Part shown: in pieces, positions 342 through 50,311 of the stretch
How positions within the stretch are numbered: position 1 is the first letter of the stretch
Layout: each line of letters begins with the position of its first letter
NCBI RefSeq assembly: GCF_005239135.1
Contig: NZ_QKNX01000001.1
Span: 310,001 to 374,000, forward strand
Direction of reading: 5' to 3'
DNA from: Natronomonas salsuginis
Lineage (GTDB): Archaea; Halobacteriota; Halobacteria; Halobacteriales; Haloarculaceae
Length of the DNA stretch: 64,000 nt
The notes under the pieces: generated by a model
Database searches by the model: none
What the model saw: the letters and a program-made list of their open reading frames with translations, nothing else
Told to the model about the DNA's origin: nothing
Program-made: the position numbers and the translations under genes

Positions 342-956
342 CTACGACAGCCGACCGTCGGCCCACATGACGTCTTCGGGGGTGTCGACGCTGTCGAAAC
401 TGTCGAGTGAGCCGTATTCGAGCAGTTCATCGCGAGCGACGACCACTCGGTCGAGCGACGAAATCGGCTCGATGATCCGCGGATTTTCGTGCTGTAACGC
501 TCGGTCACACGCTTCGACGGCCGGTTCTGCCCGATACACGGCGTGGAGCGGCTCGAACCACTCATCCGGCCGCGGGATGGCCACGTCGTGTCCGGTCGCA
601 CGCTCGAAGAGGTGCGTGATGAGGTCGGGATCGAGAAACGGCATGTCGGCGGCGACGACGACGGCGTACTCGGTTTCGACGGCTTCGAGCCCCCGCTCGA
701 TACCGGCGACGGGGCCGCGGTCGGGAACGTCGTCCACGGCGAATCGCGTCTCTACGTCGAGTCCGTCGAGCGCCTCGGCGATCGCTTCGCGCTGGTCGTC
801 GCGACAATTGACGATCAGTTCGTCGGTCACCGCGGCCAGCCGATCCGCGACGCGTCGTATCAACGGTGTGCCGGCGACGCTCACGACCGTCTTTTCAGGT
901 TCGCCCATTCGCACCGACCGTCCGCCGGCGACGATTACGCCACTCCGTCGAGTCAT
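342..956 (-). CDS. mobA: Molybdenum cofactor guanylyltransferase MobA
   Basis: This 204-residue protein should transfer GMP from GTP to molybdopterin to build the bis-MGD cofactor. The N-terminus carries the nucleotidyltransferase signature VAGGRSVRMGEPEK (about residues 7-20), followed by the acidic metal-binding region AADMPFLDPDL in mid-protein. Length is normal for the family. The ATG at 954-956 overlaps the fdhA stop codon by 4 nt (ATGA), so it is the last gene of the nuoF-fdhA-mobA operon and would supply the cofactor of the enzyme encoded just upstream. Confidence 0.85.
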   Translation of the reverse strand: MTRRSGVIVAGGRSVRMGEPEKTVVSVAGTPLIRRVADRLAAVTDELIVNCRDDQREAIAEALDGLDVETRFAVDDVPDRGPVAGIERGLEAVETEYAVVVAADMPFLDPDLITHLFERATGHDVAIPRPDEWFEPLHAVYRAEPAVEACDRALQHENPRIIEPISSLDRVVVARDELLEYGSLDSFDSVDTPEDVMWADGRLS

Positions 957-3900
957 GATCCGTCTGCTCCGGCTTCGTCGGCTTCGATCGGATCGATCCG
1001 CACGCTCGCGATCTTGTACTCGGGGATCCCGCTCGTCGGATCGTACCGCTCGCCGGTCAGCGTGTTGACCGCTCCGTCTGCGAAGTGCATCGGGACGAAG
1101 ACGACGCCCTCCCCGGGGCGATCCGTGACGGTTGCTCGCACGTCGATGTGCCCGCGCTCGGATTCGACGCGGACCGTCTCGCCGTCGTCGATGCCCAACG
1201 CCTCCGCCGTCTCGGGGTGGATCTCGACGAAGCTCTCGGGAGCGTGGTCCGTGATCTCCTCGACGCGACGGGTGAGCGTCCCCGTGTGGAAGTGATACAG
1301 CAGCCGCCCCGTCGTCAGCGTCAGCGGGTACTCCTCGTCGGGGAGTTCGCCCGGTTCGCCCATGTCGGCGGGGACGAACCGCGCCTTCCCGTCGGGGAAG
1401 TTGAAGCCGTCCCCGTAGAGGAACCGCGTCCCCGGATGATCCGCGTCCGGACAGGGCCGCTGAATCCCGCCCTCGCGCTCGATCCGTTCGTGGCTCATTC
1501 CGCCGTAGATCGGCGTGAGGTCGGTCAGCTCGTCGAATATCTCCGTCGGATTCCGATAGTCCCAACGATCGCCGTCGTGGTCGATCCGGTCGGCGAGCGA
1601 CTGGAGGATCTCCCAGTCCTGCCGCGCGCCTCCCGGCGGGTCGAGCGCCTTGCCGACCCGCTGGACCCGTCGCTCGGTGTTGGTGAACGTCCCCGATTTC
1701 TCCGCGAACGCGGCGGCCGGTAGGACGACGTCGGCGTGTTCAGCCGTCTCGGTCATGAACAGGTCCTGCACGACGAGGAAGTCGGTCGTGTCGAGCGCCT
1801 CACGGGCGTGCGTGATATCGGGCTCCGAGAGCGCCGGATTCTCGCCCATCACGTAGAGGGCGCGAACGTCGCCGTCGTGGATCGCTTCGAACGTCTCCGT
1901 GACCTTCAGACCGACCTCGTCCGGCGGTCGAACGCCCCACGCGTCCTCGAACCGATCCAGCGCCGCCTCGTCGGTCACGTCCTGGTACCCGGGCAGTGTG
2001 TTCGGCAGCGTTCCCATGTCCCCGCCGCCGCCCTGGACGTTATTGTGCCCGCGGAACGGCGAGAGGCCGGCGTTTGGCTTCCCGACGTTGCCCGTGAGCA
2101 ACGCGAGGTTCGCCATCGCCCGGACGTTGTTCGTGCCGTGAGAGTGCTGTGTGAGCCCCATTGCCCACCCGAAGACGACCGAACCTGCGGTCGCGATCCG
2201 TTCCGCGGCCTCGGTCAGTTCGTCGGCCGGAATCTCGGTCAGTTCCTCGACCGCTTCAGGCGTGAACGGCTCGACTTTCGATCGGAGCGCGTCGAAGTCG
2301 CGGACGTTCGCCTCGACGAACTCGGCGTCGTGAAGGCCTTCCTCGATGATGTGGCGAGCCATCCCGTTCATCCAGGCGATGTCGTAGCCGGGCTTCGGTC
2401 GCAGGTACTGGTCGGCGTGCTCGGCGATCCCGACCTTCCGCGGATCGACGACGACGAGCTCCGCGCCGTCGCGGACGTTCCGTTTCACCTTCGTCGCCAA
2501 CACGGGGTGTGATTCCGTCGTGTTCGTCCCAGAGAACAGGTAGCAGTCGGCGTTCGAGACGTCCTCGATGCTGTTGGACATCGCGCCGTAGCCGACGGTA
2601 CCGAGGAGCGCCGCCACCGTCGAGGAGTGACACAGCCGCGCGCAGTTGTCGATGTTCTTCGTCCCGAGCACCGCGCGGGCGAACTTCTGCATTAGGTAGT
2701 CCTCCTCGTTCGTGCACTTCGAGGAGGCGAAGCAGGCGATCGAGTCGGGACCGTAGTCGTCTCGCGCCCCTTCGAGTTCCGACGCCACCCTGTCGAGTGC
2801 TTCAGCCCACGATGCCTCGCGGAAGCCGTCGCCGTCGCGTATCAGCGGCGTGTCGAGCCGGTCGTCCCGCTCGATGAACCCGTAGCCGAACTTCCCCTTC
2901 ACGCAGGTCGAGAAGTCATTTGCGGGGGCGGCGTCGGGATCGGTCGCCCGCACTCCGAGAACCCGCTCGTCGTCGCTGTAGAGTTCGAACCGACAGCCGA
3001 CCGCACAGTACCCGCAGGTCGTCTCGGTCCGATCGAGTCGGTGCAGCCTGGCGTCGCCGACACGCTTTGCGATCCCGAAGAGGATCCCCTCCGAAAAGAC
3101 ATCGGCGGCGACGCTCTCGGCGGCGTGTTCGCCCGTTTTGACGGCGCGATCGCCGGCTGCGCGGGCGATCGATCCCACGGTGTCTTTCGCTCGGTGCATG
3201 AATCCCGCGACGCCGGTAGGGGCCGGCTCGCCGGCCTCGGCGTCTCGCTTTCGATCCCGCTCGGACCGCAGTTCGCTTCCGACTGAATTTCGCTGCGTAA
3301 ATCCCGGCAGCGGCAGCGTCGTCGCGTCGACGAGTCCGTCTTCGACGAGGCTGCCGGTCGGACACACCGTGGCGCAGTGCCCACAGGAGACACACTCCGA
3401 ATCGGCCATCGTCTCGGCGTCGGTCTGAAAGCCGATCCGCGTGTCCTCCCCCGAACCTTCGAGGCGAAGGACGCCCTCGACCTGCACGTCGTTGCAGGCG
3501 TCGACGCAGCGGTTACAGAGGATACACTTGTTGCGGTCAATGTAGATCGCGGCCGTCGCGTCGAGCGGTTCGTACGCGTCGCGGTCGTCGAAGACGCCGT
3601 ATCTGGGGTGTGAGACGCCCGCCTCGATCGCCGTGTCCTGCAGTTCGCATCGCCCGTTCTTCCCGCAAGTCGTACAGCGGAGGTTGTGATCCGAGAGGAC
3701 GAGATCGAGGTTGACCGACCGCGCCTCCGCGGCCGCCGGGGCTTCGGTGTCGACGACCGCGCCGTCCGTCGCCGGGGTCGAACAGGCCGCGACGATACCC
3801 TCGCCGTCGAGGTGGACGACGCAGGTTCGGCAGGTCGATCGCGGGCCGATCTCCTCGGCGGCCTCGGTGTTGCGGTCGTAGTGACAGAGCGCGGGCACGT

Positions 3901-4144
3901 CTCGTCCGGCGGTTTCGATCGCATCCAGCAGCGTCGCATCCGACGGGACGACGACCGTCTCGCCGTCGACGGTGAGCGTGACCGGGGCGTCGGCTCCCGG
4001 ACGCCGGTCGTCCCGGCGCTCGGGCCGCGGCGGGTCGGATGCGGTCCCCGACCGGAACGTCTCCGTCAGCGGCGTTCCCGAGCGGGAGTCGTTGAGTTCC
4101 GGAACGCCCGGCATCGGCGCGTCGACTGGCTCGTCGGCGCTCAT
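953..4144 (-). CDS. fdhA: Formate dehydrogenase alpha subunit (Mo-bis-MGD, multi Fe-S)
   Basis: This 1063-residue catalytic subunit should oxidise formate to CO2 in the cytoplasm. Domains in order: a disordered N-terminal extension of about 50 residues; a 2Fe-2S ferredoxin domain (CHYD, CRTC, then a later Cys); an H-x3-C-x2-C-x5-C cluster (HNLRCTTCGKNGRC); two 4Fe-4S ferredoxin motifs (CILCNRCVDAC and CVSCGHCATVC); an unusual charged linker of about 100 residues; then the molybdopterin domain with its own cluster (TTCGYCAVGC). The metal ligand is Cys in CARLCH, where some homologues have Sec. The C-terminal molydop-binding domain is complete. The 4-nt overlaps with the flavoprotein gene and with mobA support one transcript. 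Confidence 0.88.
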   Translation of the reverse strand: MSADEPVDAPMPGVPELNDSRSGTPLTETFRSGTASDPPRPERRDDRRPGADAPVTLTVDGETVVVPSDATLLDAIETAGRDVPALCHYDRNTEAAEEIGPRSTCRTCVVHLDGEGIVAACSTPATDGAVVDTEAPAAAEARSVNLDLVLSDHNLRCTTCGKNGRCELQDTAIEAGVSHPRYGVFDDRDAYEPLDATAAIYIDRNKCILCNRCVDACNDVQVEGVLRLEGSGEDTRIGFQTDAETMADSECVSCGHCATVCPTGSLVEDGLVDATTLPLPGFTQRNSVGSELRSERDRKRDAEAGEPAPTGVAGFMHRAKDTVGSIARAAGDRAVKTGEHAAESVAADVFSEGILFGIAKRVGDARLHRLDRTETTCGYCAVGCRFELYSDDERVLGVRATDPDAAPANDFSTCVKGKFGYGFIERDDRLDTPLIRDGDGFREASWAEALDRVASELEGARDDYGPDSIACFASSKCTNEEDYLMQKFARAVLGTKNIDNCARLCHSSTVAALLGTVGYGAMSNSIEDVSNADCYLFSGTNTTESHPVLATKVKRNVRDGAELVVVDPRKVGIAEHADQYLRPKPGYDIAWMNGMARHIIEEGLHDAEFVEANVRDFDALRSKVEPFTPEAVEELTEIPADELTEAAERIATAGSVVFGWAMGLTQHSHGTNNVRAMANLALLTGNVGKPNAGLSPFRGHNNVQGGGGDMGTLPNTLPGYQDVTDEAALDRFEDAWGVRPPDEVGLKVTETFEAIHDGDVRALYVMGENPALSEPDITHAREALDTTDFLVVQDLFMTETAEHADVVLPAAAFAEKSGTFTNTERRVQRVGKALDPPGGARQDWEILQSLADRIDHDGDRWDYRNPTEIFDELTDLTPIYGGMSHERIEREGGIQRPCPDADHPGTRFLYGDGFNFPDGKARFVPADMGEPGELPDEEYPLTLTTGRLLYHFHTGTLTRRVEEITDHAPESFVEIHPETAEALGIDDGETVRVESERGHIDVRATVTDRPGEGVVFVPMHFADGAVNTLTGERYDPTSGIPEYKIASVRIDPIEADEAGADGS

Positions 4145-15037: not shown

Positions 15038-15697
15038 TCACCGCCGCCGCTTCGGCGTGGCGCGTCGGCCACGTACCCCGCGGTCCCGATCGAGCGCCGT
15101 CGAGAGCAACGTCCGCTCGGCCTTCCGGAGATGCTCTTGCAGCGTCGCCCGGCTGATGTCGAGCGCCTCGGCGAGCTCGGCGCTCTTGATATCTCTGGGC
15201 CACTCGTAGTAGCCGCGATCGAGCGCCTCGGCCAACACGGTTCGCTGTCGGTCGGTCATCGACGGCTCTCGCCCCGTGCCGAACTCCTCGAGCTTTCCGA
15301 GCGTCACCGTCCCGAACGACGACAGGTCCTCGATGATCGCCTTGAGGTCCTCGCGGCGGAATAGCAACACGTTGTACTCCCGGTGGGTGCCCTTGATGGT
15401 GTTCGACCGTCGCAACGTCCCGTGGTTGCGATAGATCGCCGAGTAGGCTCCACAGGAGGGTTTCGTCACCAGCAGGTTTGTCTCGTCGAGCCGATCGACG
15501 TGCTCGACGTGGTCGGCCGCCTCCAGTTCTCGCTGGAAGGCGTTCGCGTCCGTCTCCGCTCCCGCCCGGAGGACGAACGTGACCGAGCCGTCGCGAACTT
15601 CCTCGATCTCGATCGGAACGGGGTCGTCGGCGTCGGCCGTGAGCCGGCGCAGGATGCATTCGCGGTGTTGCTCGAAGTGGATCGTCGCGGTGAACAT
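15038..15697 (-). CDS. Bat-like HTH_10 transcriptional regulator, divergent from hyuA
   Basis: This 219-residue protein has the bacterio-opsin-activator layout. An N-terminal sensing half (MFTATIHFEQHRECILRR to about residue 150) is followed by a C-terminal HTH_10 domain (MTDRQRTVLAEALDRGYYEW and AELAEALDISRATLQEHLRKAE). The start at 15697 begins the conserved region; the long open frame upstream is antisense to hyuA. Its gene faces hyuA across a 234-nt gap, so it probably controls the hyuAB cassette. The signal it senses is unknown. Confidence 0.8.
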   Translation of the reverse strand: MFTATIHFEQHRECILRRLTADADDPVPIEIEEVRDGSVTFVLRAGAETDANAFQRELEAADHVEHVDRLDETNLLVTKPSCGAYSAIYRNHGTLRRSNTIKGTHREYNVLLFRREDLKAIIEDLSSFGTVTLGKLEEFGTGREPSMTDRQRTVLAEALDRGYYEWPRDIKSAELAEALDISRATLQEHLRKAERTLLSTALDRDRGVRGRRATPKRRR

Positions 15698-47045: not shown

Positions 47046-47285
47046 ATGGTCAGACGGCGGCTCGGGACGAGCCTCTACGCCGGGGTGTTGTTCACCGCGC
47101 TCGGGCTGCTCCCGTGGGCGAGCGGCCGGCCGTTCATCTTCCCGAGTCTCGGTCCGTCAGCGTTCACCTTGACATTCGACCGGGCCCGAACGTACCGGGT
47201 CGTCGGTAGCCACGCCATCGACACAGTCGCCGGGTTCGCGCTCGGAGTCACACCCGCGATCGTGGGGTCGTTCTTCGATCGTTGA
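47046..47285 (+). pseudogene. Truncated HPP-family membrane protein
   Basis: The 79-codon frame begins like an HPP-family protein: LYAGVLFTALGLLPWASGRP and FIFPSLGPSAFTLTF, which includes the family's PxxGPSAF signature. It stays in register to YRVVGSHAIDTVAG. The remaining spans are missing; the sequence runs into an unrelated minus-strand MoaD-like fragment, and the stop codon is fortuitous. An HPP protein would be expected to continue for about 80 or more residues. Confidence 0.6.
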
Positions 47286-47544
47286 TCGCCACGCGAGCGA
47301 ACGCGCGCGCCCGTTCGCCCTCGGGGTTCTTCTTCCGGGTCCCCGACGGGTCGCCGTCGGTCGGAGCCCAGCCGCCCGTCGTCGCGTCCGCTTCGGTCTC
47401 GGCGATGGGCATGTCCGCGACGTCGTACTCCTCGAAGAAGACCTTCAAGAAGTCCCGGAGCGTCGATCCCTCGAAGGTGTACTCGAAGCTGTGCTTGCCG
47501 ATCTCAGTCCTGACGTTGCCGGTACATCGGACCTCGACGGTCGT
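47270..47544 (-). pseudogene. MoaD/ThiS-like ubiquitin-fold protein fragment
   Basis: The minus-strand frame reads TTVEVRCTGNVRTEIGKHSF followed by EYTFEGSTLRDFLKVFFEEY and later KNPEGERARAFARVAINDR. This resembles the first two-thirds of a haloarchaeal MoaD-type protein. Both an ATG and the terminal region with the Gly-Gly end are missing. The 3' end of the fragment is fused to the truncated HPP gene. Confidence 0.5.
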
Positions 47545-47807
47545 TTGCGTCCTCGACGCCCGCCGGGAGATCGCAGTCGTACCCTGCCGGAACGTACGCG
47601 CAAAGCGGATCGCTCGCGAGCGGGTCCCCGGTGGTCGCGAACGCCCGCGAACGGCTGCCGAAATGGACGACGACGTGACCGTGGTACAGCTCAACGACCG
47701 AGAGCCGCAGTTTCTCTACCGAAGCTCGATGACAGAGGATACACCTACGCGACGATCGAAACTGACGACAGCGCCGTGACCGCGATCTGGGAGTAGCCGT
47801 TAGGCCG
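47545..47807. other. Decayed coding sequence of unknown family
   Basis: On the plus strand MDDDVTVVQLNDREPQFLY (ATG at 47664) shifts by one frame into PKLDDRGYTYATIETDDSAV before the TAG at 47794-47796. The codon pattern is protein-like on both sides of the shift, so this looks like the end of a broken gene. I do not recognise it. Nothing else is evident in this stretch. Confidence 0.35.
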
Positions 47808-48041
47808 TTACCGCTTCGGGAATCGGGCGACGAACTCGTTCGGATGTCGCTGTTCGACCTCGTAGCCCTCGGCGTCGAAGGCCTCAACCTCCGCTTGGAA
47901 CTCGCAGAACAACGGCTTCGGTTCGTGGTCCTCGAGGATCGTCAGCGTCTCGCCGGGCGACCACTCCCCAAAGGCCGAGTGGATCTTTGGGTGGCGCTCC
48001 GCCGGCGGGACGTCTCGAACGTCGAGTGTGGTACCGGACAT
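47808..48041 (-). CDS. DUF2249 domain protein
   Basis: This 77-residue protein matches DUF2249: LDVRDVPPAERHPKIHSAF with the conserved Arg/Pro/His, then ETLTILEDHEPKPL and terminal EFVARFPKR. DUF2249 has a TusA-like fold and is often found near hemerythrins and nitrogen-oxide or low-oxygen genes. The full domain is present and the start codon is the first Met. Its placement close to a NarO/DmsR-type regulator agrees with that association. Confidence 0.8.
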   Translation of the reverse strand: MSGTTLDVRDVPPAERHPKIHSAFGEWSPGETLTILEDHEPKPLFCEFQAEVEAFDAEGYEVEQRHPNEFVARFPKR

Positions 48042-48160
48042 GCACGCTCGGCTACCCGTTCACCTCCCGAGACGCCGTTGCCGAACACGTTCGGACGGCG
48101 CGATCCCGCCGCCTGAGATCCCCCGGGGCGATTTATGTGCCGCGCCTCCAACCGTCGCAC

Positions 48161-48364
48161 ATGACCGACTCCACCAGCGGGTTCGGATCGAAGCGCGGTC
48201 GGGCATCGGGACACCCTTACACCCTCGAAGTGCTCCCGAACGGTCCCGACGATCCGAACGGCGAGTACACGTTCGTCCCGCAGAATGCGGACGGCGACGA
48301 GCGGCTCACCCAGTGGATCAGCGCTGACCGAGGAGTGATCGTCGAGCTCTCGGCGTGGCGCTGA
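48161..48364 (+). CDS. Small haloarchaeal protein (DUF7511-like)
   Basis: The 67-residue protein starts MTDSTSGFGSKRGRASGHPY and has the core YTLEVLPNGPDDPNGEYTFV with LTQWISADRGVIVELSAWR at the end. Similar small proteins are common and often multi-copy in haloarchaea. No function is known; I recall a DUF7511 label. A start codon nearer the left edge of the long open frame would add non-conserved residues and was rejected. Confidence 0.6.
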   Translation: MTDSTSGFGSKRGRASGHPYTLEVLPNGPDDPNGEYTFVPQNADGDERLTQWISADRGVIVELSAWR

Positions 48365-48411: not shown

Positions 48412-48864
48412 ATGGCAATCGATCGCCGGACCAAGATGTCGCCCGAGGAGACCGATGCCTTCCTCGGATCCCACGAGACGGGGGTGATGTCGCTCGCGCG
48501 GACGGACGAGCCGTACGCGATCCCGATATCGTACGGGTACGATGCGTCGAACGGGCAGTTTTACACGCGATTGGTCTCGACCCCGGAGAGCGAAAAGCGA
48601 CGATTTCTCGACTCGAATCCGGACGCACGGTTGGTCGTCTACGAGGCCGACGGCGACACGTATCGGAGCGTCATCGCCACCGGGACGCTCGTTCGGATTG
48701 ACCCGCAGGAACTGACCGTCGAAGATGTCCAACAGTACGGCGACGCCAAGCGGCCGCTCTTCGAGATATGGCCGAAACAGAAGGGGGAACTCGATATCGA
48801 ACTCTACCGGCTCGACCCGGAGACGCTCAGCGGCCGTCTCATCGAAATCTCCCGCGAAAAGTAG
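48412..48864 (+). CDS. Pyridoxamine 5'-phosphate oxidase-like FMN-binding protein
   Basis: This 150-residue split-barrel protein begins MAIDRRTKMSPEETDAFLGS and continues HETGVMSLARTDEPYAIPIS, YGYDASNGQFYTRLV and KRRFLDSNPDARLVVYEADG. This is the PNPOx-like pattern of flavin- or F420-binding proteins (the HugZ/NimA-like group). It probably binds FMN or heme and acts as a small reductase. It faces the same way as the DUF7511-like gene 47 nt upstream. Confidence 0.78.
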   Translation: MAIDRRTKMSPEETDAFLGSHETGVMSLARTDEPYAIPISYGYDASNGQFYTRLVSTPESEKRRFLDSNPDARLVVYEADGDTYRSVIATGTLVRIDPQELTVEDVQQYGDAKRPLFEIWPKQKGELDIELYRLDPETLSGRLIEISREK

Positions 48865-48885: not shown

Positions 48886-49023
48886 TCACGCCATCTCGAA
48901 GTGCGTCGCCCTCACGGACTCGATGCACACCGGACAGCCGCTCGAGAGGATCGCCTCTCGCATCGAGGCGTTGACCTCGATCTCCTGTTTGCAGTCGGGG
49001 CAGACGAAGATGTACGTACTCAT
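48886..49023 (-). CDS. Small zinc-ribbon protein (DUF7560-like)
   Basis: This 45-residue protein, MSTYIFVCPDCKQEIEVNAS with a later CPVC pair, forms one compact zinc ribbon. Such proteins are frequent in haloarchaea and often accompany transcription regulators. The ATG at 49021-49023 is the only reasonable start. A TATA-like GATATATC lies about 60 nt upstream. Confidence 0.7.
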   Translation of the reverse strand: MSTYIFVCPDCKQEIEVNASMREAILSSGCPVCIESVRATHFEMA

Positions 49024-49156: not shown

Positions 49157-49534
49157 TCAGTCGGCCGCCTCTGGCGTCGCGACACTCGAGGAGAGCCCGA
49201 TGGTCAGGCCCTCGGACTCCCCGAGCGAGATGGTGACGTCGTCGAACGTTCGCCGATACTCGCTCGCGTGTTTGCCGTCGGTGCTGAGCCGAACGCGCTC
49301 TTCGACGAGCCCCGCCTCGGTCAGCTGTTCGAGTTTTCGGTAGGTCGTCGAGCGCGGGACGTCGCACCGCTCGGTCAGCTCGCCCGCGGTCAGCGCCTCG
49401 TCAGTCGTCGCTTCGAGCAGCGCCCGGCAGTCGGGATCCTCAAGCGCGGCCAGGATCGCCCCGCAGTCGGCCACGCTCGAACGGTCCTTCGTCGTCGCTC
49501 GTAGGCCATCTCTCGGGTGAACTTCGGCTGCCAT
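49157..49534 (-). CDS. Winged-helix transcriptional regulator
   Basis: This 125-residue protein has a clear winged helix: DCRALLEATTDEALTAGELT, the recognition helix CDVPRSTTYRKLEQLTEAGL and the wing VEERVRLSTDGKHASEYRRT. The C-terminal tail is short. An inverted repeat (TTACGC N16 GCGTAA) lies 10-37 nt upstream of its start and could be its own operator. It is divergent from the NarO/DmsR-like regulator gene. Confidence 0.78.
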   Translation of the reverse strand: MAAEVHPRDGLRATTKDRSSVADCGAILAALEDPDCRALLEATTDEALTAGELTERCDVPRSTTYRKLEQLTEAGLVEERVRLSTDGKHASEYRRTFDDVTISLGESEGLTIGLSSSVATPEAAD

Positions 49535-49543
49535 TGTCGTGTC

Positions 49544-49571
49544 TTACGCAACGTCCTGTCCGGTGGCGTAA
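49544..49571. promoter_or_regulatory. Inverted repeat between divergent regulator genes
   Basis: TTACGC (49544-49549) and GCGTAA (49566-49571) are perfect inverted 6-mers 16 nt apart, next to the start of the winged-helix regulator gene. A further small palindrome CCCTC-AGTATA-GAGGG follows, and TTTTATAA (about 49592-49599) could serve as a TATA box for the forward gene. Confidence 0.4.
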
Positions 49572-49663
49572 TCCATCCCTCAGTATAGAGGGTATTTTAT
49601 AACGCGGCCGAGGGATTCGCGACAGCAGACAGACTTAGGTGCGTCCGGATTCAAGCCCGCTCG

Positions 49664-50311
49664 ATGGGTTCGGGGATCCGCGCTGAGATCCGCGTCGCCG
49701 CCGACGGGACCTGCCCGATCGTCGAGGCGTCGTCTGATCTCGGTTCGCCGTCATACACAATCGCGCGCGGCGTCACGGGCGGAGCGCCCGACCGGGTCAA
49801 CGAGGAGTTCATGCTCGAGAGCGGCGGCGACCCCGAAGCGAGCGTCGAGTTGACCGAAATCTTCGATTACGGCGCGAAGACGATGTACCGATTCAGCCGC
49901 GAGCGCGGCCGCGGCTGTCCATGCGAAACCGTCGAGCTGTTCGACTGCCCGATCGTCGACCTCCACGCACGCGACGGCTCGCTGTACCTCGTCTTCCACG
50001 CGACCGACATGGAGACGCTTCAGGAGACGATCGTGACGCTCCGGAACCGGTACTCGGCGGTGGACGTGCGACGGCTGCTCCGCAGCGAACACGACGCGCC
50101 CGAGGACGATCTGGTGTTGCTCGACCGGAGCCGACTCACCGAACGCCAACGCGAGGTGCTCGAAACCGCGAACTCGATGGGCTATTTCGAGCATCCGAAA
50201 GGGGCGAACGCCGGCGAGGTCGCCGACGAACTCGGGATCACCACCTCGACGTTCTCCGAGCACCTGGCGGCGTCCCAGTCGAAGTTGATGGACGCGATTT
50301 TGGACATTTAA
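49664..50311 (+). CDS. NarO/DmsR-type HTH_10 regulator with CXnCXCX7C motif
   Basis: This 215-residue Bat-family regulator has a Cys at residue 17 and then CPCETVELFDC, giving C-Xn-C-X-C-X7-C. That is the N-terminal motif reported for haloarchaeal NarO and DmsR, activators of denitrification and DMSO respiration. The C-terminal HTH_10 is complete (LTERQREVLETANSMGYFEH and ADELGITTSTFSEHLAASQS). A redox-sensitive metal or Fe-S site is the likely sensor. No nitrate, nitrite or DMSO reductase is in the window, so its targets lie elsewhere or are the small genes next to it. Confidence 0.78.
   Translation: MGSGIRAEIRVAADGTCPIVEASSDLGSPSYTIARGVTGGAPDRVNEEFMLESGGDPEASVELTEIFDYGAKTMYRFSRERGRGCPCETVELFDCPIVDLHARDGSLYLVFHATDMETLQETIVTLRNRYSAVDVRRLLRSEHDAPEDDLVLLDRSRLTERQREVLETANSMGYFEHPKGANAGEVADELGITTSTFSEHLAASQSKLMDAILDI

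Follow-up and report, generated by a model that had tools for sequence, protein, structure and literature searches.

The window (the whole stretch of DNA analyzed here, 64,000 nucleotides) belongs to a haloarchaeal genome of 2.9 Mb in 12 contigs that is 99.94% complete and whose nearest named relatives are Natronomonas. The locus of interest contains a DmsR/NarO-type regulator, a divergent winged-helix gene, and four further small genes. All six are open frames with their domains kept:

47808–48041, minus strand: DUF2249 protein, 77 aa, with the Pfam domain
48161–48364, plus strand: DUF7511 small protein, 67 aa, found near the regulator by tblastn in only 2 of 80 named loci
48412–48864, plus strand: PNPOx-like (Pyridox_ox_2) protein, 150 aa, with a homolog near the regulator in 40 of 80 named loci
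48886–49023, minus strand: DUF7560 zinc-ribbon-like small protein, 45 aa, with a homolog near the regulator in 42 of 80 named loci
49157–49534, minus strand: divergent winged-helix (HTH_20/ArsR-like) regulator, 125 aa, with a homolog near the DmsR-type regulator in 44 of 80 named loci
49664–50311, plus strand: DmsR_N + HTH_10 transcription regulator, 215 aa, with C17, C85, C87, and C95

A preliminary description of this stretch had named the same neighbors and had remarked that no respiratory operon is adjacent. Domain searches returned HTH_20, DUF7560, Pyridox_ox_2, DUF7511, and DUF2249, and no respiratory operon adjoins the regulator among the listed frames. The PNPOx protein matches the solved structures 2hti (E = 3.2e-6) and 2hq9 (E = 2.7e-4).

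The regulator matches the Pfam families DmsR_N (PF24277; residues 1–141, E = 2.8e-47, 160.9 bits versus a cut-off of 27) and HTH_10 (residues 158–210, E = 1.4e-19, 70 bits versus a cut-off of 23.1). Its only cysteines are C17, C85, C87, and C95, and their spacing (C-X67-C-X-C-X7-C) fits the motif CXnCXCX7C, which, according to the preliminary description, is reportedly a label of DmsR/NarO-type regulators. The assignment made there from the exact cysteine spacing agrees with both domain matches and with the four cysteines. Identity to the nearest named relatives, both Natronomonas, is 80% (LN261) and 73% (LUM.42). The cysteines of the DmsR_N part would serve to sense low oxygen or NO, through a metal, an Fe-S center, or thiols. 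A predicted model of the regulator (pLDDT 85.9, pTM 0.59) has an ACT/ferredoxin-like N-terminal part and an HTH and contains no metal. The best hit of a structure search with the N-terminal part was Ta1207 (5m86; Z 9.9, rmsd 3.4, 134 residues aligned), and no solved structure matching the regulator by sequence was found. The modeled ACT/ferredoxin-like fold is a common arrangement and points to no particular ligand. Related genes occur elsewhere: the genome holds a second PF24277 match, another HTH_10 (bat-like) regulator lies at 15038–15697 of the window (minus strand; 13 HTH_10 matches in the genome), and two congeners have a second DmsR-type paralog, at L072 7198–7827 (5.8 kb from the ortholog) and L073 299–934 (1.3 kb).

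Conservation of the module in related genomes

The regulator is present at 61% identity or above in ten of the 14 genomes of the genus, the host included, and is missing at that level from G225, G226, G230, and G232. Eleven ortholog loci (nine congeners and two others, 50%–80% identity) were compared. Each of the 11 has a winged-helix and a DUF7560 homolog, and nine have PNPOx; in LN261, the PNPOx gene is on a separate contig (L087). The preliminary description had made its reading depend on neighbors that are conserved with the regulator, and the counts over 80 named loci listed above show this conservation for the winged-helix, DUF7560, and PNPOx genes. Homologs of ahb, Htur_1727, NorB, NirK, or NosZ genes are within reach of the regulator in only 20 of the 80.

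Where such genes are present, they can stand directly beside the module. It adjoins nosZ in G229 and G227 (NosZ and NosD domains were confirmed for G229) and an AhbC-like TIGR04347 gene in G119 and G029 (88% identical in G029). The G119 module also adjoins Htur_1727, the identity of which was confirmed, and the AhbD-like TIGR04053. The gene at L072:8415–9617 is TIGR04347, with AhbC/NirJ1 nearest, and that at L072:9986–11101 is TIGR04053, with AhbD next. In nine of ten Haloferax loci, dmsR is divergent from the winged-helix gene and is followed by homologs of Htur_1727 and TIGR04347; the regulator of the tenth locus (L203) is a distant paralog.

G225, G226, and G232 (the last also with NorB) have NosZ but lack a close regulator ortholog; across the genus, the module and denitrification therefore do not always go together. 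Five congeners keep the regulator without NosZ and NorB (G224, G029, G119, G228, and G233); NirK is present in G224, G119, and G233, and TIGR04347 in G224, G029, and G119. In G228 (L076), the module is intact and there is no full-strength match for NosZ, TIGR04347, NorB, TIGR04053, or NirK. With respect to the denitrification and ahb genes searched, G228 may be a second orphaned module.

The cysteines are less uniform. Of 80 regulators (the window and 79 loci, the truncated L163 excluded), 68 retain C17, C85, and C87, and 46 have the full set of four. The 12 regulators without them are L160, L190, and all ten Halorubrum orthologs (L177, L182, L185, L186, L187, L189, L192, L193, L195, and L200). 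DUF7560 and PNPOx are still present with all twelve, and the ten Halorubrum loci keep the winged helix and the promoter palindrome described below as well.

Promoter elements

Three elements were considered in the gaps between genes:

48082–48093, no strand assigned: CGAACACGTTCG, a CGAA-N4-TTCG box 40 bases before the ATG of DUF2249 and 67 before that of DUF7511
49544–49571, no strand assigned: inverted repeat TTACGC-N16-GCGTAA, present, not conserved
49577–49601, plus strand: promoter element CCC-N10-GGG-N3-TTTATA between the two regulators, conserved, beside the inverted repeat

The inverted repeat had been singled out in the preliminary description as part of a response module. It is present, but its significance did not stand. 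It occurs at the same place in none of the 11 ortholog loci, and the search of the genome for further copies that had been proposed found none. The exact string appeared in 0 of 100 shuffles, but it had been picked after the fact; any perfect 6-bp inverted repeat with a spacer of 0–20 appears in 40% of shuffles of the 129-bp gap (P about 0.4). Unconserved, present once in the genome, and expected by chance in a gap of this kind, it was rejected as an operator.

Alignment of the gap in relatives revealed instead CCC-N10-GGG followed by TTTATA, with the palindrome 2–4 bp upstream of a TATA-like box. The strict pattern has 12 distinct sites in 450 kb (the window and 20 loci) versus 2.1 expected from local shuffling. 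These sites are at dmsR promoters in the window, L069, and L072–L077, beside dmsR in the opposite orientation in L078, and away from any dmsR promoter in L083, L084, and L085; the strict pattern fails in L070, L071, and L079. The host genome has one match at 0–1 mismatch, the exact site in the window, and a reversed control pattern also gave one. With a slightly looser pattern, the palindrome precedes dmsR in 40 of 43 loci that have a divergent winged helix versus 3 of 37 that do not (Fisher 1.2e-15, in which independence is overstated because kinship is ignored; shuffled rate 0.00075 per upstream region). One of the three misses with a winged helix, L132, has the palindrome on the other strand. 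On a tree of 77 rows (the window and 76 loci, four short rows excluded), the pair is found in Halorubrum, Haloferax, and Natronomonas/Natrialbaceae, the latter two joined with weak support, and its distribution requires about 4 changes versus 25.9 for shuffled labels. The winged-helix protein would bind the palindrome and set the expression of the divergent pair.

The box before DUF2249 has published counterparts. Promoters of the denitrification genes and of ahbD in Haloferax volcanii reportedly carry CGAA-X4-TTCG, which nirK requires for its transcription (excerpts of PMC5746218). Work on Hfx. mediterranei describes a related motif, CGAAYATDKTYG; mutating it significantly lowered the nor and nos promoters but not nirK (excerpts of PMC10062603 and PMC11218638). 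Excerpted text on the same species also gives a NarO homolog as not found (PMC10062603) and four DUF2249 genes as induced under denitrification (PMC11218638).

At 20 related loci, 24 of 42 box–gene pairs within 200 bp have the box 30–49 bp before the start, and genes preceded by it include MoaD-like, AhbD-like, Htur_1727, and DUF2249 genes. At the corresponding position, G119 carries the box with one mismatch. A genome-wide scan for the form CGAAYRYRTTCG returned 23 places, of which only the one at this locus is 36–46 bp before a called gene; two others (L116 and L215) precede, by 35 and 37 bp, short frames of 44 and 56 aa that are themselves within other genes. Counts in the window are near expectation for CGAA-N4-TTCG (3 versus 3.2), and CGAAYATDKTYG at one mismatch is not enriched (4 versus 4.2). 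Of box occurrences, only the position before starts carries information. The box at 48082–48093, near a start codon as is looked for with DmsR/NarO-type regulators, is a candidate site, and the regulator would act at this remaining copy.

Remnants of lost genes

Three fragments lie before the DUF2249 gene:

47275–47574, minus strand: MoaD/ThiS-like gene remnant, 72% identical to G029, frame open
47561–47665, minus strand: AhbD-like radical SAM remnant (TIGR04053), residues about 329–363, 74%–81% identical to G119
47660–47790, plus strand: second DUF2249 gene remnant, residues 47–90 of the relative's 93, in two frames

Gene order in G119 is MoaD-like, TIGR04347, Htur_1727, TIGR04053, second DUF2249, DUF2249, DUF7511, and PNPOx, and the fragments at 47275–47790 follow it as MoaD-like, TIGR04053, and second DUF2249. 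The core of the TIGR04053 remnant is residues 332–363 at 81% (47564–47659), and a separate genome search recovered the same fragment (residues 329–363, 74%, E = 5.5e-11). The sole upstream start for the MoaD-like remnant, a TTG at 47694, is not within the stretch that matches. Values of dN/dS range from 0.11 to 0.49 for the kept genes, and the MoaD-like remnant also has 0.26 (versus G029). This falls within the range of the kept genes, so dN/dS did not discriminate and does not demonstrate selection after the loss. Because gene remnants are in place, the lack of an adjacent respiratory operon looks like a secondary loss, as judged from the sequence.

Searches of the genome for the corresponding intact genes returned no full-length TIGR04053 (AhbD), the other match being a distant radical SAM gene, and for TIGR04347 (AhbC) only that same distant gene. 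NosZ had only distant matches to its cupredoxin part, NorB had none, and the best NirK match was 67.8 bits versus a cut-off of 296.3. No nitrate or DMSO reductase was found; the sole PF00384 molybdopterin enzyme found is formate dehydrogenase alpha-like (TIGR01591; window 953–4144, minus strand). The nar, nir, and dms genes that would mark an ortholog of NarO or DmsR were found neither linked to the regulator nor elsewhere in the genome. A short TIGR04053 (AhbD-like) fragment also occurs in a congener without a full-length match (G224:C47:136924–137001, residues 6–30, 72%) and is perhaps a separate loss.

Interpretation of the locus

The locus is probably an anaerobic/NO regulator module that was kept while most of its targets were lost, a reading drawn from sequence comparisons. 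It would represent a conserved haloarchaeal control module made up of a DmsR/NarO-type regulator, a divergent winged helix, a DUF7560 zinc ribbon, and a PNPOx-like protein; several relatives have this set next to genes for anaerobic heme synthesis (ahb) or denitrification. The present Natronomonas lineage would no longer have these targets: ahbC and ahbD, along with portions of two small genes, would have been lost at the locus, with fragments left, and denitrification would have been lost genome-wide too. A compact oxygen- or NO-response module had been proposed in the preliminary description. The link to anaerobiosis or NO is supported, since modules of congeners adjoin nosZ or the AhbC-like TIGR04347 and an anaerobic box precedes DUF2249, and the part of the proposal that fell away is the inverted repeat as operator. 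By family the module is ordinary, but it has a widespread partner set, of which no description was found in the literature searched, with most subscription papers outside the search. Read this way, the locus would be a natural experiment in which an anaerobic-type regulator is kept after adjacent genes were deleted and the scar is still readable, and the Halorubrum clade offers the same module minus the sensor cysteines.

Other readings concern the palindrome and the present role of the module. The palindrome could be the DmsR-type regulator's own site, used for autoregulation, with the winged-helix protein acting elsewhere, and we regard this as possible but tentative. The distance to the TATA-like box is an activator position, and the site of the bacterioopsin activator, to which the palindrome's position can be likened, also sits upstream of TATA. 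In L078, the palindrome remains beside dmsR though the winged-helix gene is 1.2 kb away, and a search of the regions preceding the winged-helix homologs in L078, L080, and L081 found no palindrome. However, 34 of 37 loci without a divergent winged helix are also without the palindrome, and the published box of NarO-controlled genes is CGAA-X4-TTCG (excerpt of PMC5746218). A wider proposal, for which the evidence leaves us hesitant, is that winged helix, palindrome, and DmsR form a haloarchaea-wide two-regulator switch apart from respiration, with a shared bidirectional promoter and a PNPOx/DUF7560 response, that persists without respiratory genes (in the host and probably G228) and without sensor cysteines (in Halorubrum).

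Doubtful, in our view, is a module that is not anaerobic here and serves in general stress (oxidative, nitrosative, or flavin/zinc) through PNPOx and DUF7560, with the CGAA box a leftover. The absence of the searched denitrification and ahb genes while the module is intact, the same state in G228, and the loss of cysteines in 12 of 80 regulators agree with it, but the window protein retains all four cysteines and the sole CGAAYRYRTTCG place 36–46 bp before a called gene is at this locus. We consider it unlikely that the module is now functionless and decaying as its lost targets did: the six genes are open with domains kept, the promoter element is exact, and the five congeners named above keep the regulator without NosZ and NorB, though some have NirK or TIGR04347. 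Broken adjacent genes, and dN/dS values compatible with recent relaxation, are what such decay would have in its favor.

Comparison with known systems

NarO of Haloferax volcanii was reportedly described by Hattori in 2016. The host regulator is likened to it by description, not by NarO sequence, as a bacterioopsin-activator-like regulator without PAS/GAF (excerpts of PMC5746218, PMC10062603, and PMC11218638) and in its anaerobic control with CGAA-X4-TTCG boxes at regulon promoters. Unlike NarO, it has a winged-helix gene, DUF7560, and PNPOx as partners, its box is a candidate site, and searches of the host genome found no genes of the nar, nir, nor, nos, or dms type. Likeness to DmsR of Halobacterium salinarum was established by family model, through the N-terminal family named after it (PF24277; excerpt of PMC11218638) and HTH_10, whereas in the host a DMSO reductase gene was not found and the sole PF00384 enzyme is the formate dehydrogenase-like one. 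Natronomonas G119 shares the order DUF2249–DUF7511–PNPOx–DUF7560–winged helix–DmsR and differs by intact TIGR04347, Htur_1727, TIGR04053, second DUF2249, and MoaD-like genes, with NirK elsewhere in its genome.

The Haloferax ahbC locus (HVO_1118–HVO_1121) also has a winged helix divergent from a DmsR-type regulator, a small zinc-ribbon gene, and the same kind of palindrome, but retains halocyanin-like, Htur_1727, and AhbC-like genes, and a PNPOx gene beside it was not detected. The promoter element and the partner genes (winged helix, DUF7560, and PNPOx-like) are thereby named and testable in Haloferax, with an AhbC-like gene beside the same pair. In the literature, HVO_1121 is ahbC (excerpt of PMC8305020) and HVO_1118 encodes a small protein with a zinc finger (excerpt of PMC6562870); both tags are tied to the locus by gene order alone. 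In the Haloferax locus L154, two genes named by eye, one zinc-ribbon-like (44 aa) and one halocyanin-like, separate dmsR from the Htur_1727/TIGR04347 homologs. This zinc-ribbon-like gene, 725–859 past the regulator start, takes the place of DUF7560 as judged by eye.
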